Part shown: in pieces, positions 1 to 49,966 of the stretch
How positions within the stretch are numbered: the first letter of the stretch is position 1
Layout of the letters: each line of letters opens with the position of its first letter
NCBI RefSeq assembly: GCF_900215655.1
Contig: NZ_OBEN01000002.1
Location: 62,001-126,000, forward strand
Source of the DNA: Hydrogenobacter hydrogenophilus
GTDB taxonomy: Bacteria; Aquificota; Aquificia; Aquificales; Aquificaceae
Length of the DNA stretch: 64,000 nucleotides
Direction of reading: 5' to 3'
Position numbers and translations under genes: made by a program
The notes under the pieces: model-generated
Seen by the model: only the letters and a program-made list of their open reading frames with translations
What the model was told of the DNA's origin: nothing
The model's database searches: none

Positions 1-221
1 CTGGAAACTACATCAGAAGCAAGTAAGTTTATGTACTTGCTGGGATTAGTGTGCAAGTTTTTATAAAACTCTATAGCAGGTTTTATCTGGTAGTCCATAT
101 AGTCATAGGTGTAATTCAGAAGAAGTTCTCTTACTGTGGCAATAGTAAAAAGAGTTATACTTATCATACTCACTAAGTATGCACCTACGAAAAAAACTAA
201 GAACTTTAACTTAACTGACAT
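1..221 (-). CDS. Sensor histidine kinase, N-terminal part (cut by window edge)
   Basis: The minus strand reads from an ATG at 221 through an uninterrupted frame to base 1. The first residues are MSVKLKFLVFFVGAYLVSMI, a basic start followed by a membrane segment, then a polar stretch typical of the extracytoplasmic sensor region of a kinase. The ATG overlaps the end of the response-regulator gene, the usual regulator-kinase coupling. The kinase core lies outside the window, so the assignment rests on position and the membrane segment. The ligand is unknown. Confidence 0.7.
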   Translation of the reverse strand, partial: MSVKLKFLVFFVGAYLVSMISITLFTIATVRELLLNYTYDYMDYQIKPAIEFYKNLHTNPSKYINLLASDVVS

Positions 222-885
222 CTTGTGGTTTAAGCATATAACCCATACCTCTGACTGTGTGTATAAGCCTTGGGGGTTTGTCCTCTAACTTCTTCCTTAG
301 GTTTTTTATGTAAACATCCACTACATTAGAATTTTCACCGTAAGTAGATCCCCATACTTTTGCAAAGAGCTTTTCCCTGCTTAGCACTTCTCCTGCATGT
401 TCTGCAAGCACTTTGAGAAGCTTGAACTCTCTGTTGGTAAGCCTTATACTGCGCCCCTTGTAATACACCTCATAAGACTTAGGGTTAATTATAAGCTCGC
501 CTATTTTTATAACTTCTTTTTCTTCCCTTTTACACCTTCTTAGAACAGCGTTTATCCTTGCGAGTAGTTCCTTGAAAGAAAAGGGTTTGGTTATGTAATC
601 ATCAGCCCCCGCAAAGAGTCCTTCTATCTTATCCTCCAGTTGTGATTTTGCTGTGATCATAATTATTGGAACATCTTTTACCTCTCTTATCCTCTTGAGA
701 ACCTTTATGCCGTCAAACTTAGGTAGCATTATGTCAAGAAGGATAAGGTCGTAATCCTCCTCCATTGCAGACCTCATGGCGGAAAAACCATCCTTTACCC
801 AAATCACGCTGTAGCCACTATGACGCAGGCCCTCCTTTATCATCTCTGCCAAGTAAACGTCATCTTCAACGAGAAGCACTCTCAT
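211..885 (-). CDS. OmpR/PhoB-family response regulator
   Basis: This is a 224-residue two-domain regulator. The receiver domain has the acidic pair D8/D9, phospho-acceptor D51 (LLLDIMLP) and conserved K100 (TKPF). The winged-helix DNA-binding domain covers about residues 125-220 and ends in the usual IHTVRGMGYML. It overlaps the kinase start at its 3' end and the PATAN-like gene at its 5' end (866-885), so it is translationally linked to the GTPase module upstream. This is an ordinary full-length OmpR-type regulator. Its regulon cannot be read from the sequence. The pst operon has its own Pho-box-like repeats, but nothing here ties this regulator to them. Confidence 0.93.
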   Translation of the reverse strand: MRVLLVEDDVYLAEMIKEGLRHSGYSVIWVKDGFSAMRSAMEEDYDLILLDIMLPKFDGIKVLKRIREVKDVPIIMITAKSQLEDKIEGLFAGADDYITKPFSFKELLARINAVLRRCKREEKEVIKIGELIINPKSYEVYYKGRSIRLTNREFKLLKVLAEHAGEVLSREKLFAKVWGSTYGENSNVVDVYIKNLRKKLEDKPPRLIHTVRGMGYMLKPQDVS

Positions 886-2278
886 CGGGAAACTTTATAA
901 ATTCTTCCACATCCATAATTTTAAACACATCCCTATAAGGCTGTAAAGCGGACTCCAACGCTTCTTCCAACTTTTTCTGCCCCAAGGTTCTGTAACCTAT
1001 GTCCAGAAGTGTGGAGAGAAAAGATAGGATCGCATCATCCTCTTCCTTAGGATTTTTCCTGTACCTTATTGACCCCTCCTCATAAAGGAATATATCCGAA
1101 GAGGCTATATAACCCATAACGCTTTGAGCTACATCGCTTACATGCTTGAGAAGTATGCCATAAACGAGGTTTATAAGAAAGAGATAAACTATGGTGCTCA
1201 TATTACCCATAGGTTCGTAAAATACCACATCTACCCAGAAAGGTTTTTCAAGCTTTAGTTGTGAAACTACCTTTATATGACCCTGCTCTTCCTGTAATAT
1301 ACCTCTAAGGTTTCCCTCCTCATAAAGTAAGTGAAAATTTCTTTGAGGTGTATAAAGCGTGATAAGACCGCTACTCTTTGATTTGCTAATGCCCATAAAT
1401 ACCTTACCTACCTCAATAAAGTCGCTATGAAGGTTGCTTATACTTCTTTTTTCTGAATGTCTTAGCATGTAAAGGTTCATGGAAACTGCATCCATACTCA
1501 CCACATTTACTTGCACAGAGCTGTTAGGATTTAGGAAAAACTCAAAAACATCGTAATTGATGGGGTAAAGGCTTATAGGCTTGCCTTTCACATAGTAAAG
1601 TTCAAAGTCCTGTGTTTTTAAAAAACCTGTAAACTTACTGAGTCGGAGGTTTTCAAGTATACTGCTAAGATTAATCTTTTTTGCTTCCACATCCTTTATG
1701 ATATACTCTGCGTAAAGCTTTTCTTCTTTTTCCTCACCGATATTGTAAAACTGGTGTATGTCAAGGAATCCTTGCAATAAAAGTTCCTTTACTTTTCGTA
1801 GTGTGTCCAGTATGCTTTCTTCAGAGGAACTTATGATCTCGTACAGGCTCTTTTCGTTATACCTTTCCATACCTTCAAAAGGCTTTTGTGCTTTTAGAAC
1901 CGCAAAAGGTGTTATGACTTTTTCTATTAAACTTCTGAGTTCAGTAGATATGAGCTGGAGCTGTAAGACTAATTCTTCCGCTTGGATGGGCTGTTCAAGA
2001 ACTAAAAAATTTTCATTGAGCTTATCCTCTCTGAAGGTAAAAAAACCTTCGGGATTTTCTAAAACTTCAGACATGTGGTAAAAAAGCAAAGCGATCTTAT
2101 TTCTTACATTACTGCTCGGAATATTTGCGGTAGAAAATGCTTTCACATAACCCTTTTCCACATAAAGGGATATGAAACTTCCATTGGAAAAAAAGTCTAA
2201 TATCCCCTCTTTGTTTATCAGACAGCTGTTTATAATGTCTACTACATCTTGTGCGGTATTTATGTATCCCGAAAGCAT
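866..2278 (-). CDS. Protein with PATAN/DUF4388-like segments, partner of MglA-like GTPase
   Basis: This 470-residue soluble protein has no signal peptide. Three segments follow a DUF4388/PATAN-like pattern (short helix, SGxL strand, then a strand ending in EGxI or KGxP): about residues 23-50, 200-240 and 285-330. Examples are LRLSKFTGFLKTQDFELYYV and SGLITLYT followed by LLYEEGNLRG. A mostly helical C-terminal third follows. The gene starts 1 base after the GTPase gene and overlaps the response regulator. A smaller relative with the same pattern sits beside the second GTPase (47801-48937). PATAN domains are known from bacterial signalling proteins that act with roadblock proteins and GTPases. 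The specific role is inferred only. Confidence 0.6.
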   Translation of the reverse strand: MLSGYINTAQDVVDIINSCLINKEGILDFFSNGSFISLYVEKGYVKAFSTANIPSSNVRNKIALLFYHMSEVLENPEGFFTFREDKLNENFLVLEQPIQAEELVLQLQLISTELRSLIEKVITPFAVLKAQKPFEGMERYNEKSLYEIISSSEESILDTLRKVKELLLQGFLDIHQFYNIGEEKEEKLYAEYIIKDVEAKKINLSSILENLRLSKFTGFLKTQDFELYYVKGKPISLYPINYDVFEFFLNPNSSVQVNVVSMDAVSMNLYMLRHSEKRSISNLHSDFIEVGKVFMGISKSKSSGLITLYTPQRNFHLLYEEGNLRGILQEEQGHIKVVSQLKLEKPFWVDVVFYEPMGNMSTIVYLFLINLVYGILLKHVSDVAQSVMGYIASSDIFLYEEGSIRYRKNPKEEDDAILSFLSTLLDIGYRTLGQKKLEEALESALQPYRDVFKIMDVEEFIKFPDESASR

Positions 2279-2279
2279 C

Positions 2280-2852
2280 TTAACCTACCATTTGTTTTAC
2301 TTTGCGTAGCATATTACTGGTAAGTAAGTTAAAGGTTTCCATCACACCCTCTCCTTTTATGGCACTGGCAGATATGGCAGTTATACCTTCTGGGTTTATC
2401 TTCTTTTCTAAGGTTTCGAAATCAAGGGCGTTGGGTAAGTCCATCTTGTTGTACTGAATAACCATGGGAAAGTTATCGTAGCTTTTTCCTATCTTTTTGA
2501 GGTCCTCTTTGAGTAGCTTTAAAAATTCCAAGTTTTCCTCAAGCCTTTCTCTCTGTGCATCCGCAACAAAAACCACACCGTCCACACCCCTTACAACGGT
2601 AAGTCTTATATCCCTATATATGTCCTGCCCGGGCACTGTATAAAGAGCAAAAGAGACCTCCATATTGCCCACATGCACCTTTTTTGTAGCAAAGTCAAAC
2701 ACTAAGGTTTTTTCTCCGGATGTATTTATCTTCATTAGGCTGAGCCCTTCTCTTTGTGCGAGCTTTTCAAGGTTCGTAGTTTTACCAGATTGAGCAGGAC
2801 CGTAATACACCACTTTGAGCTTTATAAGTTTCTTACTCACATCAAGCAACAT
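2280..2852 (-). CDS. MglA-like small Ras-type GTPase
   Basis: This is a 190-residue GTPase of the MglA group. The P-loop is GPAQSGKTTN (residues 18-27), G3 is TVPGQ instead of the Ras DTAGQ (an MglA hallmark), and G4 is NKMDLP. Its start overlaps the end of the lapAB fusion gene by 11 bases, and the next gene follows after 1 base. MglA proteins set polarity of motility or envelope machines, with MglB (roadblock) as activator. No roadblock gene sits next to this copy; one sits by the second GTPase at 48915-49484. It is cytoplasmic. The pathway is unknown. Confidence 0.85.
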   Translation of the reverse strand: MLLDVSKKLIKLKVVYYGPAQSGKTTNLEKLAQREGLSLMKINTSGEKTLVFDFATKKVHVGNMEVSFALYTVPGQDIYRDIRLTVVRGVDGVVFVADAQRERLEENLEFLKLLKEDLKKIGKSYDNFPMVIQYNKMDLPNALDFETLEKKINPEGITAISASAIKGEGVMETFNLLTSNMLRKVKQMVG

Positions 2853-3996
2853 CTTCTACCCCCCTTAGCATTATATTCCCCCAAGTGAGACATCTCTCAC
2901 ACAGAGGTACATAACTATTATAACTCTCACCACATGAGCATACCCAAGGTTTGTAAAGCTTCTGCAAAAGTTCACCACAGGTTTTGTCTATATCTCTGTG
3001 AGATTCGGAAGAAAAGGCTATCAGTTTCAAAGGTTCAGAAACTTTATCCAGAAGAGGTTTAATTTGAGTAAAGAGGCTCAGCTTTATGTAAATCCTTACA
3101 AGCACCTCTGGATTTATACTCTCTTGTCTTTCCCTGATAAAGTCCATAATCTTAGTTAGCTTTTCTTCATCTTGATGCAAGATGGCAAGCGCCTCGTTCT
3201 GTATACCCCCAGAGAAGACTTTATCTAATTGCTTTTTAGCTTCTTTTAAATCTCCTTTTTCAAGCAGATACTTTATCCAAATAGCCTGAGTATAAAAAGT
3301 TTTGTATGTGTCAAAGGCTTTCTTCACAAACTCTTCCCTGTTTTCCAATAGGATCTCAGAAGCGTATGCAAGCACTTCCGCAAAAACCTTTTTTTGTAAA
3401 TCTTTTTCCCACTTTTCACACAGTTTTAAAACATTTTCCTGATAACTTATGCAAGCAGACATGTCTTTTTCTAAAAAGCTTATGTCTCTTAGACCTTTCA
3501 AAGCTATCAAGTTAGAGGGATCTTTTGAAAGAGCAGAAAGGAAGCTCTCCTTAGCCTTCTGATAATCTTTTGCCTTAAGCAAGTAGTAGCCAAGGAGAGC
3601 ATCTACAAGCCCCCTTTCTCTATTGAACTTTAGTTCTTGGACTCTGTGAATTTCTCCCCTTTCCGCTATGGCTTTGATGGTAATGAGCGCCACTTCTTCT
3701 CTCTTTTTTGAAGCTGATAGTAGTTCTCCTTCAGCTTTTTGAAAGTAGCCACGAGCTAAATGGGATATACCGTTCATCAGGTTTTTCCTAAAGGTGCTCT
3801 GTCTTAGGTCCCTCATCAAAAAGTACAAAGTGGGAAGTATAAAACCTACGGAAAAAGAGAAGAGTATTATTACAAAAAGAGGAACTTGGTAAACCATACC
3901 AAAAAAGTTCAGTTGAACATAGTACGCATGCTGGGCAACAAACACAAGGAACAGAACTATTAAAGCTACCGCAACGAGCACCTTTATAAAATTCAT
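2842..3996 (-). CDS. LapA-LapB fusion (LPS assembly/LpxC control protein)
   Basis: This 384-residue protein combines two proteins that are separate in Escherichia coli. Residues 1-60 form two hydrophobic segments resembling LapA/DUF1049 (QLNFFG then VPLFVIILFSF). Residues about 75-330 are TPR-like helical repeats. The C-terminus carries a rubredoxin-like metal knuckle, C353-x-C355 and C366-x2-C369, preceded by W351 as in LapB/YciM. In enterobacteria LapB controls LpxC turnover with FtsH and sits at the inner membrane. Start 3996 overlaps rsfS by 4 bases. The architecture is read directly; the LPS role is by family. Confidence 0.75.
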   Translation of the reverse strand: MNFIKVLVAVALIVLFLVFVAQHAYYVQLNFFGMVYQVPLFVIILFSFSVGFILPTLYFLMRDLRQSTFRKNLMNGISHLARGYFQKAEGELLSASKKREEVALITIKAIAERGEIHRVQELKFNRERGLVDALLGYYLLKAKDYQKAKESFLSALSKDPSNLIALKGLRDISFLEKDMSACISYQENVLKLCEKWEKDLQKKVFAEVLAYASEILLENREEFVKKAFDTYKTFYTQAIWIKYLLEKGDLKEAKKQLDKVFSGGIQNEALAILHQDEEKLTKIMDFIRERQESINPEVLVRIYIKLSLFTQIKPLLDKVSEPLKLIAFSSESHRDIDKTCGELLQKLYKPWVCSCGESYNSYVPLCERCLTWGNIMLRGVEDVA

Positions 3997-4325
3997 ACCT
4001 CAACCCTCCTTGCGCCTCCATAGAGCCACTCTAAATCGTAATATTCCCTCCATTCTTTCTGAAATATGTGCACTATAGTATCAAGATAGTCTATAAGTAT
4101 CCAATGGGCGTTTTCTAAACCTTCTATATGGTCTGGCTCTATGCCGTGTTTTTTTAGCTCTTGAGTTAGATAGTCCGCAAGGGCTTTTGCATGAACAGAA
4201 GAGTTTGCAGTTGCTATCACAAAGTAATCTGCTATGTTGGTAAATTCTGAAACATCAAGCACTACTATATCTTCACCTTTCTTGTTTTCAAGAAGTTCCT
4301 TTATAAGCTTTAACTTTTCCGTCAT
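3993..4325 (-). CDS. rsfS: Ribosomal silencing factor RsfS
   Basis: This 110-residue protein matches the RsfS/DUF143 family over its whole length: DVSEFTNIADYFVIATA near residues 24-40, the HIEG and WILIDY motifs, and the typical VHIFQ...YYDLEWLYG ending. RsfS binds L14 of the 50S subunit and blocks subunit joining in nutrient-poor cells. It overlaps bamD upstream and lapAB downstream by 4 bases each (ATGA type), so it is translated as part of this operon. Confidence 0.95.
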   Translation of the reverse strand: MTEKLKLIKELLENKKGEDIVVLDVSEFTNIADYFVIATANSSVHAKALADYLTQELKKHGIEPDHIEGLENAHWILIDYLDTIVHIFQKEWREYYDLEWLYGGARRVEV

Positions 4326-5236
4326 CTCTTTACATACTTTTTGAGCTCTCTGTAGTAGCTGTTTTCTCCATAAACGCTCTTGTACTTCTCCATGTTTTTC
4401 AGTCCCTCTTGGTAGCTCTCATCCGCTATACGCCTCCACCTTTCTATTTCTCCCTCAAGGAAAGCAATTCTCTTTTGAATGGCTCTTTTGTCATCTTCAG
4501 TCTTTGCTTCTTTGAGGTGCTTTTTAGCCTCCTCTATCCAGTTTCTGTACTTCTCTTCCTGTCTTTTTGCCTGCAACCTCACCAAAAGTAGGGACTTAAT
4601 ATACCTAAAGGACACCTCTGCATCCGATATCTGGTCTGGATAGTTTATGAGCAGATCCCTGTACCTTAAAGATGCTGAATAGTAGTAGCCAAAGTCCTCG
4701 TAAAACCTACCTATGAGATACTCGTGCGTGGCAAGTTTCTTCTGTGCGTCTTCTATTATGTTTCTAACTCTATCCGCATAAGGACTTTGAGGGAACTTAC
4801 TTAAAAAGTCTTTGGCTTTATCTATGGCTTTGAGGGTGTAGGTTTGATCCCTATAGGGGTCTGGTGCCACCTTCATATAACTGTCCACTAACATAAAGTA
4901 AGCCTTCTGTGTCTCCGGTATATCCGGGTAGTAAAAGAGGAAGTCCTCAAGGTAAACTATTGCGTTTATGTAATCCTTTTTCATGTAATAGCTTTCAGCT
5001 ATAGCATACTTGGCATCCTTTATCTGCTCTGGTGTAAGGTTCTCAAGATACTTGAGAGCTTCTTTTAGTTTTTCTATCGCTTTTGAGTAGTCTCTGTTGG
5101 CATACGCTGTCATGCCTTCTTGGTAATACTCAATAGCATACTTAGCTCTTTTTTCTTCTGTCATTTTAGCACAGCTGAAGATAAGCATAAGCAGTCCTAA
5201 GAATACAAACCTTCTATGCCTTGTAATGTATCTCAT
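4322..5236 (-). CDS. bamD: Outer-membrane assembly lipoprotein BamD (TPR)
   Basis: This is a BamD-like lipoprotein of 304 residues. A signal peptide ends in a lipobox (LMLIFSC), followed by TPR repeats such as YYQEGMTAYANRDYSKAIEKL and SYYMKKDYINAIVYLEDFLFYYP. BamD is the essential periplasmic lipoprotein of the BAM complex that inserts beta-barrels with BamA; a BamA-type protein is encoded at 56767-59358. The start was set at 5236 (MRYITRHRRF) because the ten codons before it break the signal peptide. It overlaps the end of rng. The C-terminal part (about 230-290) is unusually charged and probably a coiled coil. Confidence 0.85.
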   Translation of the reverse strand: MRYITRHRRFVFLGLLMLIFSCAKMTEEKRAKYAIEYYQEGMTAYANRDYSKAIEKLKEALKYLENLTPEQIKDAKYAIAESYYMKKDYINAIVYLEDFLFYYPDIPETQKAYFMLVDSYMKVAPDPYRDQTYTLKAIDKAKDFLSKFPQSPYADRVRNIIEDAQKKLATHEYLIGRFYEDFGYYYSASLRYRDLLINYPDQISDAEVSFRYIKSLLLVRLQAKRQEEKYRNWIEEAKKHLKEAKTEDDKRAIQKRIAFLEGEIERWRRIADESYQEGLKNMEKYKSVYGENSYYRELKKYVKR

Positions 5237-6608
5237 AGTCGTTGTAATCCACATTTGGGTCCTCAACTAAGTTCACATACTTTATTCCGCTCTTTTCTAT
5301 CACACCTTTGACTACGCTCAGGCTCTGAGGATTCACATGCAAGTCAACTACACCATGAAGATCACTTTTTAGGTCTCTCTCAAGTTCAAAGGCTAACAGA
5401 CTTTTACTGCGTACCTTTCCTTTTCCTTTGCATAACGGACAGCTTTCGGTAAGTAAAGAAGAGAGACTCTCCCCACTTTTCCTTCTGGCCATTTCTAAGA
5501 GTCCAAGCTTTGTAAAACCGTAAATTTGGACATTACAAGCTTCTTCTCCAAAAGATTCTTGCAGTGCTTTTATGACCAAGTCTCTATTTTCTTGCTTCTT
5601 CATATCAATAAAGTCTATAACAATTATACCACCTATGTCCCTAAGTATTATCTGCCGAGCTATCTCTTTTGATGCTTCCAAGTTGGTACTTACTGCGTTC
5701 TCTTCGTGAGACTCTCCATAAGGTTCCCCGCTGTTTACATCAATTACCGTCATGGCTTCTGTTTCTTCTATAACCAAATAACCTCCACCCTTTAGCCAAA
5801 CATACTTACTAAGCATCTTTCTGAAAGTTTCGTGTATTCTGTACCTGCTTATATAAGCGCCAACATCTTTAACATACACAGTTTTCTTTACCAAAGAAGG
5901 TTCAAACTCCTCAAGGAAGGATACTATATCATTCCATACATAGGGGCTATCTGCTACTATTTCCTCAAGCTCGTGCCAGTGGTCTTTTATCAACCTTACA
6001 TAAGAAGGATACTCTTCAAGAAGTATGCCCGGTTTTTTCTGAGCGGAAGTTTTTTTTAAGATTTTGAGCCACAGTTTTTTTAAGTTATCTATGTCTTTTA
6101 GGATCTCCTCTTCGCTTGCCTTTGAAGCGTGTTTCCTGAATATAATACCACAGTTAGACCCATGTTGGGAAAACAAGCGCGAAGCTATATACTTTAACCT
6201 TTCTTTTTCTTCCTTTTCCAGTTTTGAAGAGCATTTTACTTCATTTGTGTTAGGTAGGTATATGACATATTTGCCTATTAACTTTATCCTTCTTGTCAGT
6301 TTTGCTCCCTTTTCCCCTACTGGTTCTCTAAGCACTTGTACGATCACTTCTTCTCCTACTCTTAGTAGTTCCGTGTTCTCTCCTTTACATTGGGACCTAA
6401 GAGGTAAATAAGCTTCCTTCTCAAGCCCTATATCAACAAAAGCTCCGTCCATGCCCTTTACTAACTTCTTTACTTTACCTTTAAATATGCTATCCGTTAT
6501 CCTCAAAAGCCCCCGCCTTTCCACCTTTATCTTTTGTATTTCTACCCCTTCTATCAGAAAAGAAAAAAAACCTTCCTGATTAGAAAGCACCAACAAGCTT
6601 TTTGCCAT
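5214..6608 (-). CDS. rng: Ribonuclease E/G (RNase G type)
   Basis: The protein has 464 residues, the size of RNase G or the catalytic half of RNase E. It has an S1-like RNA-binding domain (about 35-110: GKVKKLVKGMDGAFVDIGLEKEAYL), catalytic-site motifs around TVIDVNSGEP and IVIDFIDMK, and the zinc-link CPLC near the C-terminus, where RNase E uses CPRC. It cuts single-stranded RNA and acts in rRNA and mRNA processing. The start is set at 6608 (MAKSLLVLSN). An in-frame upstream extension is hydrophobic, lies in the promoter region and is not like the family. It is the first gene of the minus-strand envelope operon. Confidence 0.93.
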   Translation of the reverse strand: MAKSLLVLSNQEGFFSFLIEGVEIQKIKVERRGLLRITDSIFKGKVKKLVKGMDGAFVDIGLEKEAYLPLRSQCKGENTELLRVGEEVIVQVLREPVGEKGAKLTRRIKLIGKYVIYLPNTNEVKCSSKLEKEEKERLKYIASRLFSQHGSNCGIIFRKHASKASEEEILKDIDNLKKLWLKILKKTSAQKKPGILLEEYPSYVRLIKDHWHELEEIVADSPYVWNDIVSFLEEFEPSLVKKTVYVKDVGAYISRYRIHETFRKMLSKYVWLKGGGYLVIEETEAMTVIDVNSGEPYGESHEENAVSTNLEASKEIARQIILRDIGGIIVIDFIDMKKQENRDLVIKALQESFGEEACNVQIYGFTKLGLLEMARRKSGESLSSLLTESCPLCKGKGKVRSKSLLAFELERDLKSDLHGVVDLHVNPQSLSVVKGVIEKSGIKYVNLVEDPNVDYNDYEIHYKA

Positions 6609-6618
6609 CAAAAATATA

Positions 6619-6647
6619 TTAACACTAAAAAAAATATGAATTATAAT
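6619..6647 (+). promoter_or_regulatory. Sigma70-type promoter of the DUF202 gene
   Basis: A -35 hexamer TTAACA (6619-6624) and a -10 hexamer TATAAT (6642-6647) lie 17 bases apart. The predicted start of transcription falls near 6654, leaving about six bases before the ATG at 6660 and no room for a Shine-Dalgarno site. The same 51-base gap must also hold the divergent rng promoter. Confidence 0.6.
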
Positions 6648-6659
6648 TGTTTTGTAAGT

Positions 6660-7313
6660 ATGCTTATAGCTAAGCACCTTCCATCCGCAAAGGATGCTCG
6701 TATATACATGTCTGTTGAAAGAACTTACTTAGGTTATATAAGGTTTTCCCTCTACACCCTATCTTTTGCGGTTTTTTTAAGGAAGTTGGAGGTGCTTGCA
6801 GATATAACCCAGAAGATACATTTATCCGTATTCTTGGAGCACATAGCTATAGCCTTATCCATAGTGGGTACCTTTCTTATAATTGCAGGTATACTTACCT
6901 TTTACTTGGACATAAAATACATAGAAGGAGGTATAGAAGTGTCCCCAAAAGAAGTTACTGATCCAAGGATTTATATGGCTGCGGAAAGGACTTTTCTTGC
7001 ATGGATAAGGACTTCCATATCTCTCATAGTTTTTGGATTCGTTATAGAGAAGTTTGAGTTCTTCTTAGAACAGTTAGAGAAAGTTTTCAACATACATCTG
7101 AGAGGTGATCACAGAACTCTTGTGGGTGTGGGAGTTTTCATAATAATTGTGGGACTCTTCACACTTATACTTGGTACTATAAACTTTTATAGAACTATAA
7201 GGCAGGTGGACGCAGGTTATTACAGGACACACACATGGCTATATAAGATCTACGGCGCCGTGATATTTTTGGCATGTTTGGTTCTAACCTTTTATGTGCT
7301 CAAGATTATCTAA
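6660..7313 (+). CDS. Tandem DUF202 (YidH-like) membrane protein
   Basis: This 217-residue membrane protein is two DUF202 domains in a row. The signature DARIYMSVERTYLGYIRFSL in the first half recurs as DPRIYMAAERTFLAWIRTS in the second, each followed by two more hydrophobic helices, giving about six membrane segments. Ordinary DUF202 proteins are single domains of roughly 100-120 residues with three helices. The function of the family is not established. The start at 6660 keeps the conserved D-x-R-I-Y-M motif whole; the promoter just upstream suggests a near-leaderless mRNA. Confidence 0.75.
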   Translation: MLIAKHLPSAKDARIYMSVERTYLGYIRFSLYTLSFAVFLRKLEVLADITQKIHLSVFLEHIAIALSIVGTFLIIAGILTFYLDIKYIEGGIEVSPKEVTDPRIYMAAERTFLAWIRTSISLIVFGFVIEKFEFFLEQLEKVFNIHLRGDHRTLVGVGVFIIIVGLFTLILGTINFYRTIRQVDAGYYRTHTWLYKIYGAVIFLACLVLTFYVLKII

Positions 7314-35141: not shown

Positions 35142-36133
35142 AAAAGACTACTTTAGCCCTTCTGACTTTTGGTACCATAACAATAGCCATGGAAATCACG
35201 GGAGCTGGAGCTACTTTCCCTCAACCCATCTACACAAGATGGGCTGCAGAGTTTTACAAAGCTACAGGCAACAAAGTAAACTATCAAGGTATAGGTTCTG
35301 GTGGTGGTATAAGGCAGATCATAAACAGAACTGTGGATTTTGGAGCCTCTGATGCACCACTGGAGCCAGAAGAACTAAACAAGCACGGTCTTCTGCAGTT
35401 TCCAACAGTTATAGGTGCTGTAGTGATAACCTATAACGTTCCTGAACTCGGAAAGACAGTACTGAACTTAGATGCCAAAGCTGTATGTGATGTATACATG
35501 GGTAAGATAAAAAAGTGGAATGACCCATACCTAAAACAGCTTAATCCTAATGTGAATCTACCAGACAGGTCCATAGTGGTGGTTCACAGGTCCGATGGCT
35601 CTGGTACTACTTGGATATTTACCAACTGGCTTTCCAAGACTTGTCCCGAGTGGAAAGAAAAAATAGGCTATGGTACTTCTGTCAAGTGGCCTACAGGAGT
35701 AGGCGGTAAAGGTAACCCCGGTGTTACAAATTATGTCAAAAGATCTCAAGGTGGTATAGGCTATGTGGAGTACATTTATGCAAAAGAAAACAACTTGCCT
35801 ATGGCAAGGATCAAAAACAGGGAAGGTGTGTTTGTAGAGCCCAGCATCAAAACGGTTCAATCAGCAGCATCATACGCTAAGTGGGACAAATCCAAACACT
35901 TTTACCAAGTGCTCACAGACCAACCCGGAAAAAATACCTATCCTATAGCGGGTGCCACCTTCATACTCCTTGCAAAGGATCAACCAGAAAGGTCTAAAAA
36001 AGCTACAACTTTCTTCAAGTGGGCTTATCAAAACGGAGACAAATATGCAGAGGAGCTACACTACATACCCATGCCCTCAAATGTGAAGAACATGATATTT
36101 GAATACTGGAAGGAACACGGTGTTGCTCCCTGA
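35138..36133 (+). CDS. pstS: Phosphate-binding protein PstS
   Basis: This 331-residue periplasmic binding protein has a signal peptide and then ITGAGATFPQPIYTRW, typical of PstS; GSGGGIRQI, DFGASDAPL, and the phosphate site VVHRSDGSGTTWIFTNWL. It captures phosphate for the PstCAB permease encoded next. It is translationally coupled to the small gene upstream and 12 bases from pstC. Confidence 0.97.
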   Translation: MKKTTLALLTFGTITIAMEITGAGATFPQPIYTRWAAEFYKATGNKVNYQGIGSGGGIRQIINRTVDFGASDAPLEPEELNKHGLLQFPTVIGAVVITYNVPELGKTVLNLDAKAVCDVYMGKIKKWNDPYLKQLNPNVNLPDRSIVVVHRSDGSGTTWIFTNWLSKTCPEWKEKIGYGTSVKWPTGVGGKGNPGVTNYVKRSQGGIGYVEYIYAKENNLPMARIKNREGVFVEPSIKTVQSAASYAKWDKSKHFYQVLTDQPGKNTYPIAGATFILLAKDQPERSKKATTFFKWAYQNGDKYAEELHYIPMPSNVKNMIFEYWKEHGVAP

Positions 36134-36145
36134 TGATGTTATAAT

Positions 36146-37123
36146 ATGCAGATAGTGAGCTCCGTAAAGGACAGAGCCAACAGTATCAAGATACGCGCTG
36201 GCAGGGTAGACAAGTTTGTAAAGATTTCCCTTGGCATATGGGCCCTCTTTGTGGGCCTTTTATTTCCTCTTATCGTAATCTTTATACTTTTTAAAGAGTC
36301 CAAATTAGCCATAGACACCTTTGGACTACTAAGATTCCTACTTAATCCCAATTGGGATCCTGTAGCTGGTGACTTTGGTGGACTTACCATGGTGGTAGGC
36401 ACCCTGACAAGCACCTTTCTGGCTATGCTCATAGCCGCTCCCGTTTCTTTAGGTATAGCCATATTTATAACAGAGCTTTCACCTAAGTGGCTAAAACCTA
36501 TTATATCCACCGCAGTAGAGCTCTTAGCTGCAATACCCAGCATCATATACGGTATGTGGGGTTTCTTGGTACTTGCTCCAGTAATGGGTGATAAAGTAGA
36601 ACCTTGGCTACAGGATAAACTGAGCCATTTACCTATAATAGGTCAGTTATTTTCTGGCATACCCACTGGGGTAGACGTGTTAACAACGAGTTTGGTGCTA
36701 TCCATCATGATCATACCCTTCATGGCTTCTGTAGTAAGGGATAGCTTTAATATGGTTCCTTCCATTATGAAGGAGTCTGCGTATGGCCTTGGTGCAACCC
36801 AGTGGGAGGTTATAAGACACGTGGTCATACCTTACACGGCAAGTGGCATAGCAGGCGGCCTCATCTTAGCTACTGGTAGAGCCTTAGGTGAGACCATGGC
36901 AGTGACCTTTGTTGCTGGAAACAACCCTCAGATACCCAAGTCCTTGTTTGATTCTTTTACCACCATAACTGTAGCTCTTGCCAACCAATTTACCGAAGCG
37001 GACACAGGACTGTATTTATCCTCTCTGTACTTGCTGGCATTTATTCTCTTTTTGATCTCTTTCATTCTTCTTGCTGTTGCTAAGTATATGATATTACGCT
37101 TAGAAAAGAGGTGGAAGACATGA
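36146..37123 (+). CDS. pstC: Phosphate ABC permease PstC
   Basis: This 325-residue inner-membrane protein has six or so helices. The permease signature EAA loop is ESAYGLGATQWEVIRHVVIPYTASGIAGG, and AAIPSIIYGMWGF and GRALGETMAV are PstC-typical. It pairs with PstA to form the phosphate channel. Its TGA overlaps the pstA ATG. Confidence 0.96.
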   Translation: MQIVSSVKDRANSIKIRAGRVDKFVKISLGIWALFVGLLFPLIVIFILFKESKLAIDTFGLLRFLLNPNWDPVAGDFGGLTMVVGTLTSTFLAMLIAAPVSLGIAIFITELSPKWLKPIISTAVELLAAIPSIIYGMWGFLVLAPVMGDKVEPWLQDKLSHLPIIGQLFSGIPTGVDVLTTSLVLSIMIIPFMASVVRDSFNMVPSIMKESAYGLGATQWEVIRHVVIPYTASGIAGGLILATGRALGETMAVTFVAGNNPQIPKSLFDSFTTITVALANQFTEADTGLYLSSLYLLAFILFLISFILLAVAKYMILRLEKRWKT

Positions 37124-38007
37124 AGACCTACAGAAAATTTTTAAACTTCTTCATGCTCAGTCTCTCTACCTTTATGGCGGTGTACGGTATATTCTGGCTT
37201 TTTTGGATACTATACTCCTTGTTTGTTAACGGCTTTAAGTACCTAAAACCAGAGCTTATATACTTAGATCCTACACCCACAGGCGTAGAGGGAGGTGGTC
37301 TAAGACATGCGTTCGTAGGACACCTTATACTTACATCTCTTGGTACGCTTATAGGTGTTCCCATAGGTATAGCTGCAGGCATATTTTTTTCTGAGTATGC
37401 GAGACACAGCAGGCTATTTGTAATCTTCAGACAGATAACGGACATAATGGTAAGCACACCTTCTATAGTGATAGGTGCGGTGGTTTATGCCCTTTTGGTA
37501 AAGCCTCTTGGACACTTCAATGGTCTTGCCGGTGCAGTTGCTCTTGCATTGCTTATGATACCAGTCATAGCTATAACCACAGATGAGATGTTAAAGCTGG
37601 TACCTCAGCAGATGAGAGAGGCAGCATACGCCTTAGGTGCCTATCAGTGGCAGGTTATAAAGAGCGTCATTCTCAGAGCGGCTAAGGTAGGCATACTTAC
37701 AGGCGTGCTACTAGGAGTAGCCAGGATATCAGGAGAGACCGCTCCCCTTCTATTTACTTCTTTTAACAACGCTTACATGAACCTGAACCTTATGAAACCT
37801 ATGGCTTCCCTTACCGTTACCATGTTTGATTATGTTATGGGACCCTACCAATACTGGCACGAGCAAGCGTGGGCAGCAGCTTTTGTACTCACCATGGGTG
37901 TGCTTCTGCTTTCAATAACAGCTAAACTTGTGTTACACGGAAATCTACTAAGACCCTTAACATACATAGTTCGTTCTTTCACAAGGAGTAAAGACAAGGA
38001 GGAGTAA
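37120..38007 (+). CDS. pstA: Phosphate ABC permease PstA
   Basis: This 295-residue permease has STPSIVIGAVVYALLV, the EAA loop EAAYALGAYQWQVIKSVILRAAKVG, and ARISGETAPLLFT. The ATG at 37120 overlaps the pstC stop (ATGA); a GTG nine bases earlier is less likely. It is the PstC partner in the phosphate importer. Confidence 0.96.
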   Translation: MKTYRKFLNFFMLSLSTFMAVYGIFWLFWILYSLFVNGFKYLKPELIYLDPTPTGVEGGGLRHAFVGHLILTSLGTLIGVPIGIAAGIFFSEYARHSRLFVIFRQITDIMVSTPSIVIGAVVYALLVKPLGHFNGLAGAVALALLMIPVIAITTDEMLKLVPQQMREAAYALGAYQWQVIKSVILRAAKVGILTGVLLGVARISGETAPLLFTSFNNAYMNLNLMKPMASLTVTMFDYVMGPYQYWHEQAWAAAFVLTMGVLLLSITAKLVLHGNLLRPLTYIVRSFTRSKDKEE

Positions 38008-46907: not shown

Positions 46908-47804
46908 TCACTTGAGAAGATCCATCACCTTCTTTATACTTACCCTCATTCTCTCAAAAGCTTCCGCAAGCTTTCCTATCTCGTCATCTGACTTGATGTC
47001 AACAGGCTCATCTACATTACCCTTAGCTATTTCTTCCGCCTTTCTTTCTAACTTTTCCACAGGCTTAAAGACTAGTCTGTCAAGGGAAAAGAGTATAAAG
47101 AGAGTCAGAGCTAAAAAGAGACCAAAAATGAATAGCCCTCTGTACAGACCCGTTAACTGAGCTTTTAATATGGTTGATTCAAAAGGCACAAATACCATGA
47201 CAGCGCCCTGAACCTTTCCCACTTCCCAGTTAAGATCGTGCTGAGGTTTGTATAAAGTCTGAATTACTTTTGGCATGTTCTGCACCTGACCGTGGCACCT
47301 CAAACAGCTTGCATCTGGCACCACTGCGGATGCATAAACAAAGTACCTCTCCCCTTTGTAGTTTGTTATATCAGAGTACTCTTTATTCCCAGTGTTTCTC
47401 ATAAAGACTATAATTTTGGCTTCAAGCTCATTGGGTTCGTCCTTAGGGTTTAGAGGATTAAAAGCTACCTGTCTTAGTGCAAAGTTAGGCATCTCTTCGC
47501 TCACTTTTTTGAAGATAGATGCAGTGAAAAAGCTCGAAGATTGGGCTTCAAGTATAAAGTCCTCTTTGGAACAACCGCTTGCCAAAATTTCGTCAATTTT
47601 AGGTCTTAGTATGCTTCTTACATACTCTCTTGATGCTTTGGTAAAGGTCATGGCAGTTTTTATTTTCTCCTTTGTGGTATCTTTGGCTTGATCCACGGAG
47701 TTTTGGTAAGAGTAAAAACCCACCGCTAAACCTGAGGCTATGCCTATAACTAAGATGGGAAGACCTACTTTCCACCTTATACTTTTTGGCAAAGGCAGTT
47801 TCAT
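46908..47804 (-). CDS. Membrane c-haem sensor (DUF3365/Tll0287-like) with HAMP, no output domain
   Basis: This 298-residue protein has a first membrane helix at about 14-34 and an extracytoplasmic domain (35-220) with haem motif CLRCH at 167-171 preceded by a DUF3365-like YFVYASAVVPDAS. A second helix spans 222-243, then a HAMP domain (RLVFKPVEKLERKAEEIAKGNVDEPV...). The protein stops after HAMP; no kinase, cyclase or methyl-accepting part follows. It overlaps the PATAN-like gene by 4 bases, so the GTPase cluster is its probable partner (inference). Confidence 0.8.
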   Translation of the reverse strand: MKLPLPKSIRWKVGLPILVIGIASGLAVGFYSYQNSVDQAKDTTKEKIKTAMTFTKASREYVRSILRPKIDEILASGCSKEDFILEAQSSSFFTASIFKKVSEEMPNFALRQVAFNPLNPKDEPNELEAKIIVFMRNTGNKEYSDITNYKGERYFVYASAVVPDASCLRCHGQVQNMPKVIQTLYKPQHDLNWEVGKVQGAVMVFVPFESTILKAQLTGLYRGLFIFGLFLALTLFILFSLDRLVFKPVEKLERKAEEIAKGNVDEPVDIKSDDEIGKLAEAFERMRVSIKKVMDLLK

Positions 47805-48937
47805 TCCACAACCCTCCTTACTTTTTCTAAAAACCTATTTGCGTGCATACTATCTGGAATCTCTCTATACAGCACATCTATAAGTTTTTTGAGATCTTCC
47901 TTCTTCATGCTCCTTTCCGTATAACCTCTGTCCTTCAGTATTTTATTCCAAAGTAGTGGCCCTATGGGTCCTATCTCCTCAATAAAGTGCGTCTTTACAG
48001 CATTTACCTTTTCCTCTTCAAGGTATTCTTGTTCTGTACCTTCGTAAAACTCCACCTGTATGGGTGAAGGGGACTCCTTTACATCAAGACTGTAAAGGGA
48101 AAAGTTATTTTTAGTACCGGGAGCTATACCATGGCTTGTTGTGTCTATCTGGTCCATGTTATGCAAAAGCTTTAAGAGAGAAGCACCACGATAAAAGAAT
48201 TCATATAACCTTTCACCACTATAGAGGAATAGATCAAGAAGTGCACTTAATTTTCTGTTACTTATTTCTTTCCTGAAAAGAGTAAGCTCTTCTTCACTGG
48301 CAACGGTTCCTTCTCTTTCCTTCTTGAGCGTGCTCATGGAGGATATGATCAGAGGAAGCTCAGGTTCTGTTACATAAACTGCCACATAGCTATCGTCCCT
48401 TTGTATCTCTACTTTCTGAAGGTTGCTTGAGGTATAAAGGTTATGGTGGTAAGAGCATATAGGAAGACCTTTTTGGAACATAAGCATAAAGGTGAACCTT
48501 TCCCTGTTGCACATGATGAGATATCCGTCTATATGAGACCTCTTTATCTGTTCCATGAGTTTGTATATGTCAATGTGCGAAAGCTTAACACACGCAAGGA
48601 ACTCCTGACCATAACCTGCAAAGTTGTAAGGGCTTGGTGGTGCGTTATACTGGTGTTTGAATATGAGCAGATTAACCACAGGCACCTGATAGAAGGATAC
48701 GCTACCTTCTGTGTTTTTGGGTTCGTAGTTTTGTGCTGTTATCTCCCTTCTTGTCCCATCTCTATCTATACTTACACCCCATAAAAAATCTCCTTCTGTA
48801 TAAAGTAAGTAATCGTCCGAGTTCCAATAAGATATCTTGAAATACCCGGATAGTTTTTTGTGCGCTACTTCCTGCATTAAGTTTTTCAGGTCTACAGTCT
48901 CTAAGCTAAGGTCCTTATAAAGAGCTATCTTTTGCAT
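47801..48937 (-). CDS. Protein with PATAN/DUF4388-like segments, second GTPase cluster
   Basis: This soluble protein of 378 residues has three repeats of the same pattern as the 866-2278 protein: about 10-60 (HKKLSGYFKISYW then LLYTEGDFLWG), 120-165 (SHIDGYLIMCN then MFQKGLPICS) and 220-255 (RKLSALLDLFLYSG then FYRGASLL). The C-terminal helical tail (PIGPLLWNKILKDRGY) is distinct. It overlaps the GTPase gene by 23 bases and the haem sensor by 4. It is probably the effector or adaptor of this GTPase, by gene order. Confidence 0.6.
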   Translation of the reverse strand: MQKIALYKDLSLETVDLKNLMQEVAHKKLSGYFKISYWNSDDYLLYTEGDFLWGVSIDRDGTRREITAQNYEPKNTEGSVSFYQVPVVNLLIFKHQYNAPPSPYNFAGYGQEFLACVKLSHIDIYKLMEQIKRSHIDGYLIMCNRERFTFMLMFQKGLPICSYHHNLYTSSNLQKVEIQRDDSYVAVYVTEPELPLIISSMSTLKKEREGTVASEEELTLFRKEISNRKLSALLDLFLYSGERLYEFFYRGASLLKLLHNMDQIDTTSHGIAPGTKNNFSLYSLDVKESPSPIQVEFYEGTEQEYLEEEKVNAVKTHFIEEIGPIGPLLWNKILKDRGYTERSMKKEDLKKLIDVLYREIPDSMHANRFLEKVRRVVE

Positions 48938-49484
48938 ACTTGAACACCAATATGTTCTTAATGGCTTTTACAAAAGTCTCTAATACACCTCTACCTTCTA
49001 TGGCTACCGCTTCTACAAAGTCCGCATCCCAAGGGTTATACATCATCTGCATCTCTTCTATTGGCATGGCATCTGGAAGGTCTCTTTTGTTGTACTGAAC
49101 TACCACTGGAAACCTCATGAGGTCTTCTCCTTGCTCTTTCAACACCGCTGCTGTTTCCCTCATCACCAGAAAATTGACCTGTTTTCTTTCTATACTGCTG
49201 TCTACTACAAAAACCAGTCCGTCAACACCTTTCATAATGACCTTTCTGAGTGGGTGAAGTCTAAACTGTCCGGGTGTGGTCAAGATCTTCACATCTACAT
49301 TTACTCCATCTATGTCTATACTGCTTACAAACATCTCTACAAAAAGTGTTCTCTGCTCGTCCGTTTCCATACTCACAAAATCCCCCTTAGCTATGCCCTT
49401 ATCTTTAAGAATTTCGTATAGCTTTTTCACATTGGTGCTTTTACCTGCTAAGCTTGAACCAAAATAAACAAGCTTTAGCTTCAT
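48915..49484 (-). CDS. MglA-like small GTPase, second copy
   Basis: This 189-residue protein has P-loop GSSLAGKSTN, G3 TTPGQ (MglA type, no aspartate) and G4 NKRDLPDA. It is clearly related to the GTPase at 2280-2852 in length and motifs. It overlaps the roadblock gene by 4 bases and the PATAN-like gene by 23, so the four genes 49966 to 46908 form one translational chain. It is predicted to be cytoplasmic and switched by the roadblock protein. Confidence 0.85.
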   Translation of the reverse strand: MKLKLVYFGSSLAGKSTNVKKLYEILKDKGIAKGDFVSMETDEQRTLFVEMFVSSIDIDGVNVDVKILTTPGQFRLHPLRKVIMKGVDGLVFVVDSSIERKQVNFLVMRETAAVLKEQGEDLMRFPVVVQYNKRDLPDAMPIEEMQMMYNPWDADFVEAVAIEGRGVLETFVKAIKNILVFKYAKDSSL

Positions 49485-49966
49485 GCCCCTATGATCCTGT
49501 TTAATTTTTCCTCAAGAGTTTTCACATCCACCTTTATCTTTTTGGCAGGTAAGAGTTTTATATTAGAAAAAATTTCCTCAAGCTCTTGAGATGCTTCTCT
49601 CAAAAATAGTCTAACGCTTCCTAATGCAACCCCTTTATCCACTAATATGCCTATGAGGAATCTGGGTTTTATAGCTTTTATTATCACATCAACCTTTCTA
49701 CCTTCAAACTGTAGAAGGTCAAGTTCCTCTATAGAGAGCATTTTGGACATCTCTGAAGCAGCTCCAAATATACCGCTCATGAGGCTTGCTATAAATTCCG
49801 ACCTATCTTCCGCAGTTTCTTTACCCTTTATGTCTACAATTCTGCCTGCATCATCGCTTAGAACTACTATGTGAGCGGATGTTTTGGAAATAAGATTTTC
49901 AAGAATTCTACTGATCTTATTTTTTATACTGTCTTCTATCTCGTACTCTATAAGATCAAGTTCCAT
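49481..49966 (-). CDS. Roadblock/LC7 (MglB-like) protein
   Basis: The protein has 161 residues. The central roadblock fold (HIVVLSDDAGRIVDIKG...EFIASLMSGIFGAASEMSKML...LLQFEGRKVDVIIKAIKPRFLIGILVDKG) matches MglB, the GTPase-activating partner of MglA. A C-terminal helical tail (VDVKTLEEKLNRIIGA) is typical of MglB. It is the first gene of the haem-sensor GTPase cluster; glyA ends 32 bases upstream of its start codon. Confidence 0.85.
   Translation of the reverse strand: MELDLIEYEIEDSIKNKISRILENLISKTSAHIVVLSDDAGRIVDIKGKETAEDRSEFIASLMSGIFGAASEMSKMLSIEELDLLQFEGRKVDVIIKAIKPRFLIGILVDKGVALGSVRLFLREASQELEEIFSNIKLLPAKKIKVDVKTLEEKLNRIIGA

Follow-up and report, generated by a model that had tools for sequence, protein, structure and literature searches.

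An orphan MglA-family GTPase and its PATAN partner are conserved as a gene pair in the Aquificaceae and adjoin a separable two-component system in one clade

Gene content of the locus

The window, meaning the whole stretch of DNA analyzed here, comprises 64,000 nucleotides of Hydrogenobacter hydrogenophilus (bases 62001-126000 of contig 2, in a genome of 1.6 Mb that is 99.99% complete). At its left end, a GTPase gene is followed by genes for a PATAN-like protein, a response regulator, and a histidine kinase, all on the minus strand, with spacings of exactly +1, -20, and -11 bases. The open reading frames of the window therefore agree with the original prediction, made earlier from this DNA, in the order of the four genes and in their gaps or overlaps of 1, 20, and 11 bases. 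That prediction had the run start at the GTPase gene, whereas a LapA+LapB-like gene, rsfS, a bamD-like gene, and an RNase E/G gene precede it. The features of the run are as follows.

1..221, minus strand: histidine kinase, first 73 aa; remainder beyond the left end of the window (L008:8902-10221)
211..885, minus strand: response regulator of the OmpR/PhoB type, 224 aa (Response_reg 7.9e-31, Trans_reg_C 1.3e-29)
866..2278, minus strand: PATAN2, a DUF4388/PATAN protein, 470 aa (structure model with pLDDT 86.7; DUF4388 found in orthologues)
2280..2852, minus strand: GTP2, an orphan MglA-family small GTPase, 190 aa (match to MglA structures, 2.4e-53)
2842..3996, minus strand: LapA+LapB-like putative fusion, with hydrophobic N-terminus, TPR repeats, and C-terminal four-cysteine zinc ribbon
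3993..4325, minus strand: rsfS, ribosomal silencing factor, in the same gene run
4322..5266, minus strand: BamD/YfiO-type outer-membrane lipoprotein gene (YfiO 4.3e-35), in the same gene run
5214..6677, minus strand: RNase E/G family gene, at the head of the conserved run (RNase_E_G 3.5e-83)

The LapA+LapB-like gene and the GTP2 gene overlap by 11 bases. The histidine kinase is complete in the genome, where its 439 aa start at window coordinate 221 and extend to about -1098. It is followed, just left of the window (L008:8191-8898), by a TonB-C-terminal-like gene found only in this genome and two close relatives. A promoter and terminator scan of the run was uninformative, with 17 promoter-like sites against 20.8 expected from shuffled sequence.

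GTP2 is a Group-1-like MglA and PATAN2 is homologous to a second PATAN protein of the window

GTP2 has the GxxxxGK[T/S] and NKxD motifs of the MglA family, in the form of the P-loop GPAQSGKT and NKMD. Its switch II reads TVPGQ, and TVPGQ or TIPGQ is found in nearly all orthologues. At the place of MglA Arg53, next to the G2 threonine, GTP2 carries Lys48. As the Group 1 arginine is lacking, we call GTP2 "Group-1-like" rather than a full member of Group 1, and it is best read as an orphan MglA of this kind with a dedicated PATAN partner.

The window also holds a first module with its own GTPase (GTP1) and PATAN protein (PATAN1), and the two modules had been predicted to be paralogous. The GTPases are homologous (BLASTP E 6e-35, 34% identity). 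In the phylogenetic tree, GTP2 groups with the canonical MglA of Thermus and Myxococcus and not with GTP1 (97/85), which disfavors a recent duplication, though an AU test of the alternative GTP2+GTP1 grouping (p 0.28) does not reject it. Plain BLASTP between PATAN1 and PATAN2 gave no signal (E 0.33). Profile comparison with hhalign, where pairwise BLASTP is blind, did recover the predicted relatedness of the PATAN proteins (96.1%, E 3e-9 over 250 columns, against 0.1% for unrelated controls). Homology of both components thus holds; a recent duplication is not favored.

The PATAN2 protein of the window alone scored 19 bits against DUF4388 (PF14332), whose cut-off is 25, whereas all 34 of its orthologues matched the family at E 0.1 or better, the best at 4e-13. 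The structure model consists of a run of PATAN-like beta-alpha-beta modules and a helical C-terminus, and by our reading of the secondary structure by eye, it may be divided into three repeats. The nearest named relatives of the gene, at 89-91% identity, come from Hydrogenobacter metagenome genomes. Searching the PATAN1 and PATAN2 models against solved structures returned only meaningless sliding-clamp matches (TM under 0.2), and a PDB sequence search with the PATAN2 profile returned only chance matches.

GTP2 and PATAN2 are kept together across the Aquificaceae

We compared 49 loci of the Aquificaceae, a family of hydrogen-oxidizing bacteria from hot springs, and searched 64 genomes for presence or absence. 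The GTP2 and PATAN2 genes were adjacent and on the same strand in all 48 loci with enough contig, spaced by -4 to +10 bases, with a 4-base overlap in 25 loci. Searching the 64 genomes with PATAN2 recovered the same set of genomes as GTP2, barring fragmentary contigs in two (G012 and G019), and the genomes at least 90% complete that miss either gene miss both (G029, G031, G032, G033, G041, and G048). No roadblock gene was matched near GTP2 in the window or in any relative searched, as had been predicted for this GTPase, so that the coupled MglB expected of a canonical module is missing here. Collectively, GTP2 and PATAN2 form an inseparable unit of the family that comes without a roadblock gene.

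In other genera, the gene that follows the pair is an unrelated housekeeping gene. From reading their sequences, we take these genes to be prolyl-tRNA synthetase, a tRNA methyltransferase-like gene, an ABC transporter, and a phosphoglycerate mutase-like gene. Such company would suit a reading in which the pair and the two-component system are mere passengers of a shared housekeeping operon, functionally unconnected with one another and with the LapA+LapB-like protein. We hold this to be unlikely, since it does not account for the way GTP2 and PATAN2 overlap and strictly occur together.

A LapA+LapB-like gene precedes the pair in most loci

The LapA+LapB-like gene lies immediately upstream of GTP2 in 44 of 49 loci, at spacings of -38 to +13, and this three-gene arrangement usually sits within an RNase E/G-BamD-RsfS operon. 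All five loci where it does not adjoin belong to genus g8, which has the gene elsewhere in the genome. LapA_dom was found in 19 of 22 orthologues, and most members combine TPR and LapA_dom. Four cysteines (C353, C355, C366, and C369) are invariant alongside the TPRs; PF18073 matches 2 of 22, and LapB models match weakly in several. A search with the zinc-ribbon segment returned generic zinc fingers only. LapA and LapB (YciM) are regulators of LPS assembly, LapB acting through FtsH on the turnover of LpxC. The protein would share with them a membrane anchor, TPR repeats, and a C-terminal four-cysteine ribbon, which in LapB is of the rubredoxin type. It differs in that the LapA-type and LapB-type parts would here be one polypeptide, a lead given how weak the LapB matches are.

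This neighbor raises the possibility that its TPR domain is the target of GTP2, in the way that SgmX is a TPR effector of MglA in Myxococcus (PMC11580455), and that the switch tunes envelope (LPS) assembly. The upstream position in 44 loci and the TPR plus LapA_dom architecture fit this proposal. The g8 loci, however, keep the pair apart from the LapA+LapB-like gene, and the gene persists without GTP2 in g4 and in G041, so that we regard the proposal as plausible in outline and improbable on balance.

The two-component system is separable from the pair

With HAMP, HisKA, and HATPase_c domains in the kinase and a receiver plus Trans_reg_C in the regulator, the two downstream genes form a system of the OmpR/PhoB type. 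They adjoin the GTP2-PATAN2 pair in 21 of the 49 loci, all within one clade made up of g1, g6, g8, and g9. There the four-gene order is conserved, with overlaps of -4 to -41 bases, and the g8 genomes keep all four as a block at a distance from the LapA+LapB-like gene. The predicted conservation of the order from GTPase to kinase accordingly holds within this clade and fails outside it. The original prediction had named a separation of the two-component genes from the GTPase genes in relatives as the observation that would count against it, and G050, G009, and g4 provide it: the kinase orthologue is placed elsewhere in the genome in G050 and G009, and g4 has a kinase relative of 35-36% identity and no MglA-family match. 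In most of g2, g3, g10, and g11, genera that have GTP2-PATAN2, no kinase orthologue was detected.

The reverse arrangement was also seen. In two g4 genomes and in G041, the regulator gene lies directly behind the LapA+LapB-like gene, without the pair. In a tree of neighboring genes, g4 comes out next to the g1/g6/g8/g9 clade and G041 falls within g6; at least G041, therefore, has lost the pair and retained the regulator. G048 may record the same loss with the regulator retained, in a genome whose contigs break there. The kinase and regulator are thus a separable two-component system that probably joined the run in one clade.

Roadblock genes elsewhere in the genome

GTP2 had been described as belonging to a second GTPase module. 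Another module does exist, but the genome encodes four MglA-family GTPases, and GTP2 is the only one without a neighboring roadblock gene. The first module has the content predicted for it, namely a GTPase, a PATAN protein, a roadblock, and a haem sensor.

46908..47804, minus strand: Tll0287-type haem protein with HAMP
47801..48937, minus strand: PATAN1
48915..49484, minus strand: GTP1, MglA-family GTPase
49481..49966, minus strand: RBL1, MglB-like roadblock

In the first and third modules, the roadblock gene is immediately upstream of the GTPase gene and a PATAN-type protein is encoded downstream; the fourth module has the order roadblock, DUF4388 protein, GTPase.

The original prediction had suggested that the two modules of the window may share RBL1 as activator, an idea that the wider comparison does not support. 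Several near-complete genomes with GTP2 have no RBL1 orthologue, for example G025 (same genus, 99%), G037, G039, and G051. An MglB-type query gave zero matches in G037, G039, and G051, whose remaining roadblocks are the small one of the fourth module and some weak roadblock-like proteins. Because RBL1 is absent from such genomes, dependence of GTP2 on it is unlikely. GTP2 could conceivably use the fourth-module roadblock.

These absences also bear on the prediction that GTP2-PATAN2 receives a kinase signal by way of the response regulator and borrows the roadblock of the other module. Its appeal lies in the four-gene order of the 21 clade loci, with overlaps that persist in g8 where the LapA+LapB-like gene is elsewhere, and in the precedent of conservons and Myxococcus MglA, where GTPases are tied to two-component systems (PMC4316618). 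We nonetheless find this route highly doubtful: the kinase is placed elsewhere, undetected, or present without a GTPase in the relatives described above, RBL1 is absent from near-complete genomes with GTP2, and the regulator has a DNA-binding output domain. The tight overlaps in the clade and the g8 cluster still make a direct link between kinase and GTPase conceivable.

We also asked what might stand in for a roadblock. Profile comparison for a roadblock hidden in PATAN2 or in the LapA+LapB-like protein gave hhalign values of 0.2% and 0.3%, and this candidate was rejected. PATAN2 itself might be the missing GAP or GEF, replacing the roadblock as regulator of the nucleotide state of GTP2. The strict pairing, the lack of a nearby or hidden roadblock, and the presence of a roadblock gene with the GTPase in each of the other three modules all speak for this. 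PATAN proteins, though, also accompany the three roadblock-bearing GTPases and so need not replace a roadblock, and the fold search returned no solved GTPase regulator; we judge this role for PATAN2 distinctly unlikely.

Arginine-to-lysine exchange at the finger position of GTP2

Lysine occupies the finger position in 12 of 49 GTP2 orthologues (the window copy and 11 of the 48 others), and arginine in the other 37. All but one of the 12 Lys-bearing copies belong to the loci with an adjoining two-component pair, giving 11/21 with that pair against 1/28 without it. Counting only the starred branches of the tree, at least four changes between Arg and Lys are needed, and the best tree calls for six. 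The exchange is recurrent, yet confined largely to one region of the tree and clustered by descent, and a correlation of the Lys finger with the two-component pair was set aside as having too few independent contrasts despite these counts. The arginine is retained throughout in the two remaining Group-1-like GTPases of the genome. The distance from the P-loop lysine to the finger residue is 24 residues in 49/49 GTP2 orthologues, compared with 28 in MglA.

MglB works by shifting MglA Arg53 into the active site (PMC6876712), and a lysine at this position therefore argues against ordinary use of a roadblock by GTP2. Judged from the residue, the window copy probably hydrolyzes GTP slowly and does so without RBL1. 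With the arginine kept in 37 of the 49 orthologues, slow hydrolysis cannot extend to the group as a whole. Taken further, PATAN2 might be a roadblock-independent GAP or GEF, with the exchange marking a finger made needless by PATAN2 or by a phosphorylation input, an idea we rate as quite improbable.

Comparison with known systems

GTP2 shares the TVPGQ/TIPGQ switch II and NKxD with Group 1 MglA (Thermus, Myxococcus, and the orphans SofG and Bdellovibrio MglA), and MglA is its best structure match (2.4e-53). It differs in having Lys in 12 copies at a position where Arg is reported as invariant across Group 1, in a P-loop with mostly Ala where MglA has Gly, in being four residues shorter from P-loop to finger in every one of the 49 orthologues, and in its fixed PATAN partner. 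Orphan MglA proteins are already known, 59 of 449 MglA proteins having no neighboring MglB (PMC4316618), as are PATAN genes near mglA, reported as occasional neighbors of Group 1 and Group 5 mglA genes (PMC4316618; Makarova 2006, Wuichet and Sogaard-Andersen 2014). The Aquificaceae pair departs from those neighborhoods in being strictly kept across the family and in lacking the roadblock usual for such GTPases. Actinobacterial conservons (CvnA-D) resemble this locus in linking a small MglA-family GTPase genetically to a histidine kinase. They combine a kinase, a roadblock, CvnC, and the GTPase, without a response regulator (PMC4316618). The present locus is not a conservon, since it includes a response regulator and lacks a roadblock, and its kinase is dispensable to the pair. 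In the open-access papers searched, we found no description of the fixed family-wide pair, its LapAB-BamD context, its clade-specific two-component neighbor, or the Arg-to-Lys changes.

A proposed two-protein switch

We consider it fairly likely that GTP2 and PATAN2 are a dedicated two-protein switch, and that the separate two-component system acts by transcription rather than as input to the GTPase. GTP2 would cycle between GTP and GDP, and PATAN2 would bind it directly, as effector or regulator. The output would lie at the envelope, in positioning of a type IV pilus motor or in envelope assembly, and the OmpR-type system would work through transcription, perhaps on its own operon. Within the clade, GTP2 appears repeatedly to have swapped the Arg finger used by roadblock GAPs for Lys. 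We place the output at the envelope on two grounds: pilus motors are acted on by PATAN proteins in other organisms, cyanobacterial PATAN regulators having been connected with the motor PilB1 (PMC7690835), and the pair itself lies in the LapAB-BamD run. ATPases of the T2SSE family occur in all 64 genomes of the family; since g4 keeps them without any MglA, a pilus output is only a guess at direction. Against the switch, the adjacency of the two genes may reflect co-expression only.

What is known of bacterial Ras-like GTPases comes largely from MglA and its roadblock GAP. An orphan kept family-wide with one PATAN partner offers a small and presumably thermostable system for the effect of PATAN proteins on MglA-type GTPases, a question left since the association was first noticed. 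The relatives without the pair that retain the neighboring regulator and envelope genes provide a natural experiment.

Additional observations on the other modules

The third module (L009:9543-11771; contig C1, about 210848-213076) encodes a roadblock, a GTPase, and a PATAN fused to a zinc ribbon and HEAT repeats, and a further DUF4388-like protein is encoded nearby (L009:12573-14258). The fourth module (L010:8704-10308; contig C1, about 35703-37307) is tightly packed and runs from a small roadblock through a DUF4388 protein to a Group-5-like GTPase (GTPGQ). No other roadblock is as widespread in the family, and this one occurs even where the others are absent. On contig C15 (L014:1102-1830), tandem small proteins with weak likeness to roadblocks recur across the family, with no GTPase gene seen beside them.

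The first module varies among relatives. In G057 (L081, L082), it is split, with the GTPase and PATAN1 about 298 kb away from the roadblock, a further indication that module parts can separate. Genomes of g3 (L083, L084, L085, L091, and L094) carry a second, longer Tll0287-like haem protein upstream of the first-module roadblock, often beside another PATAN1-like stretch.
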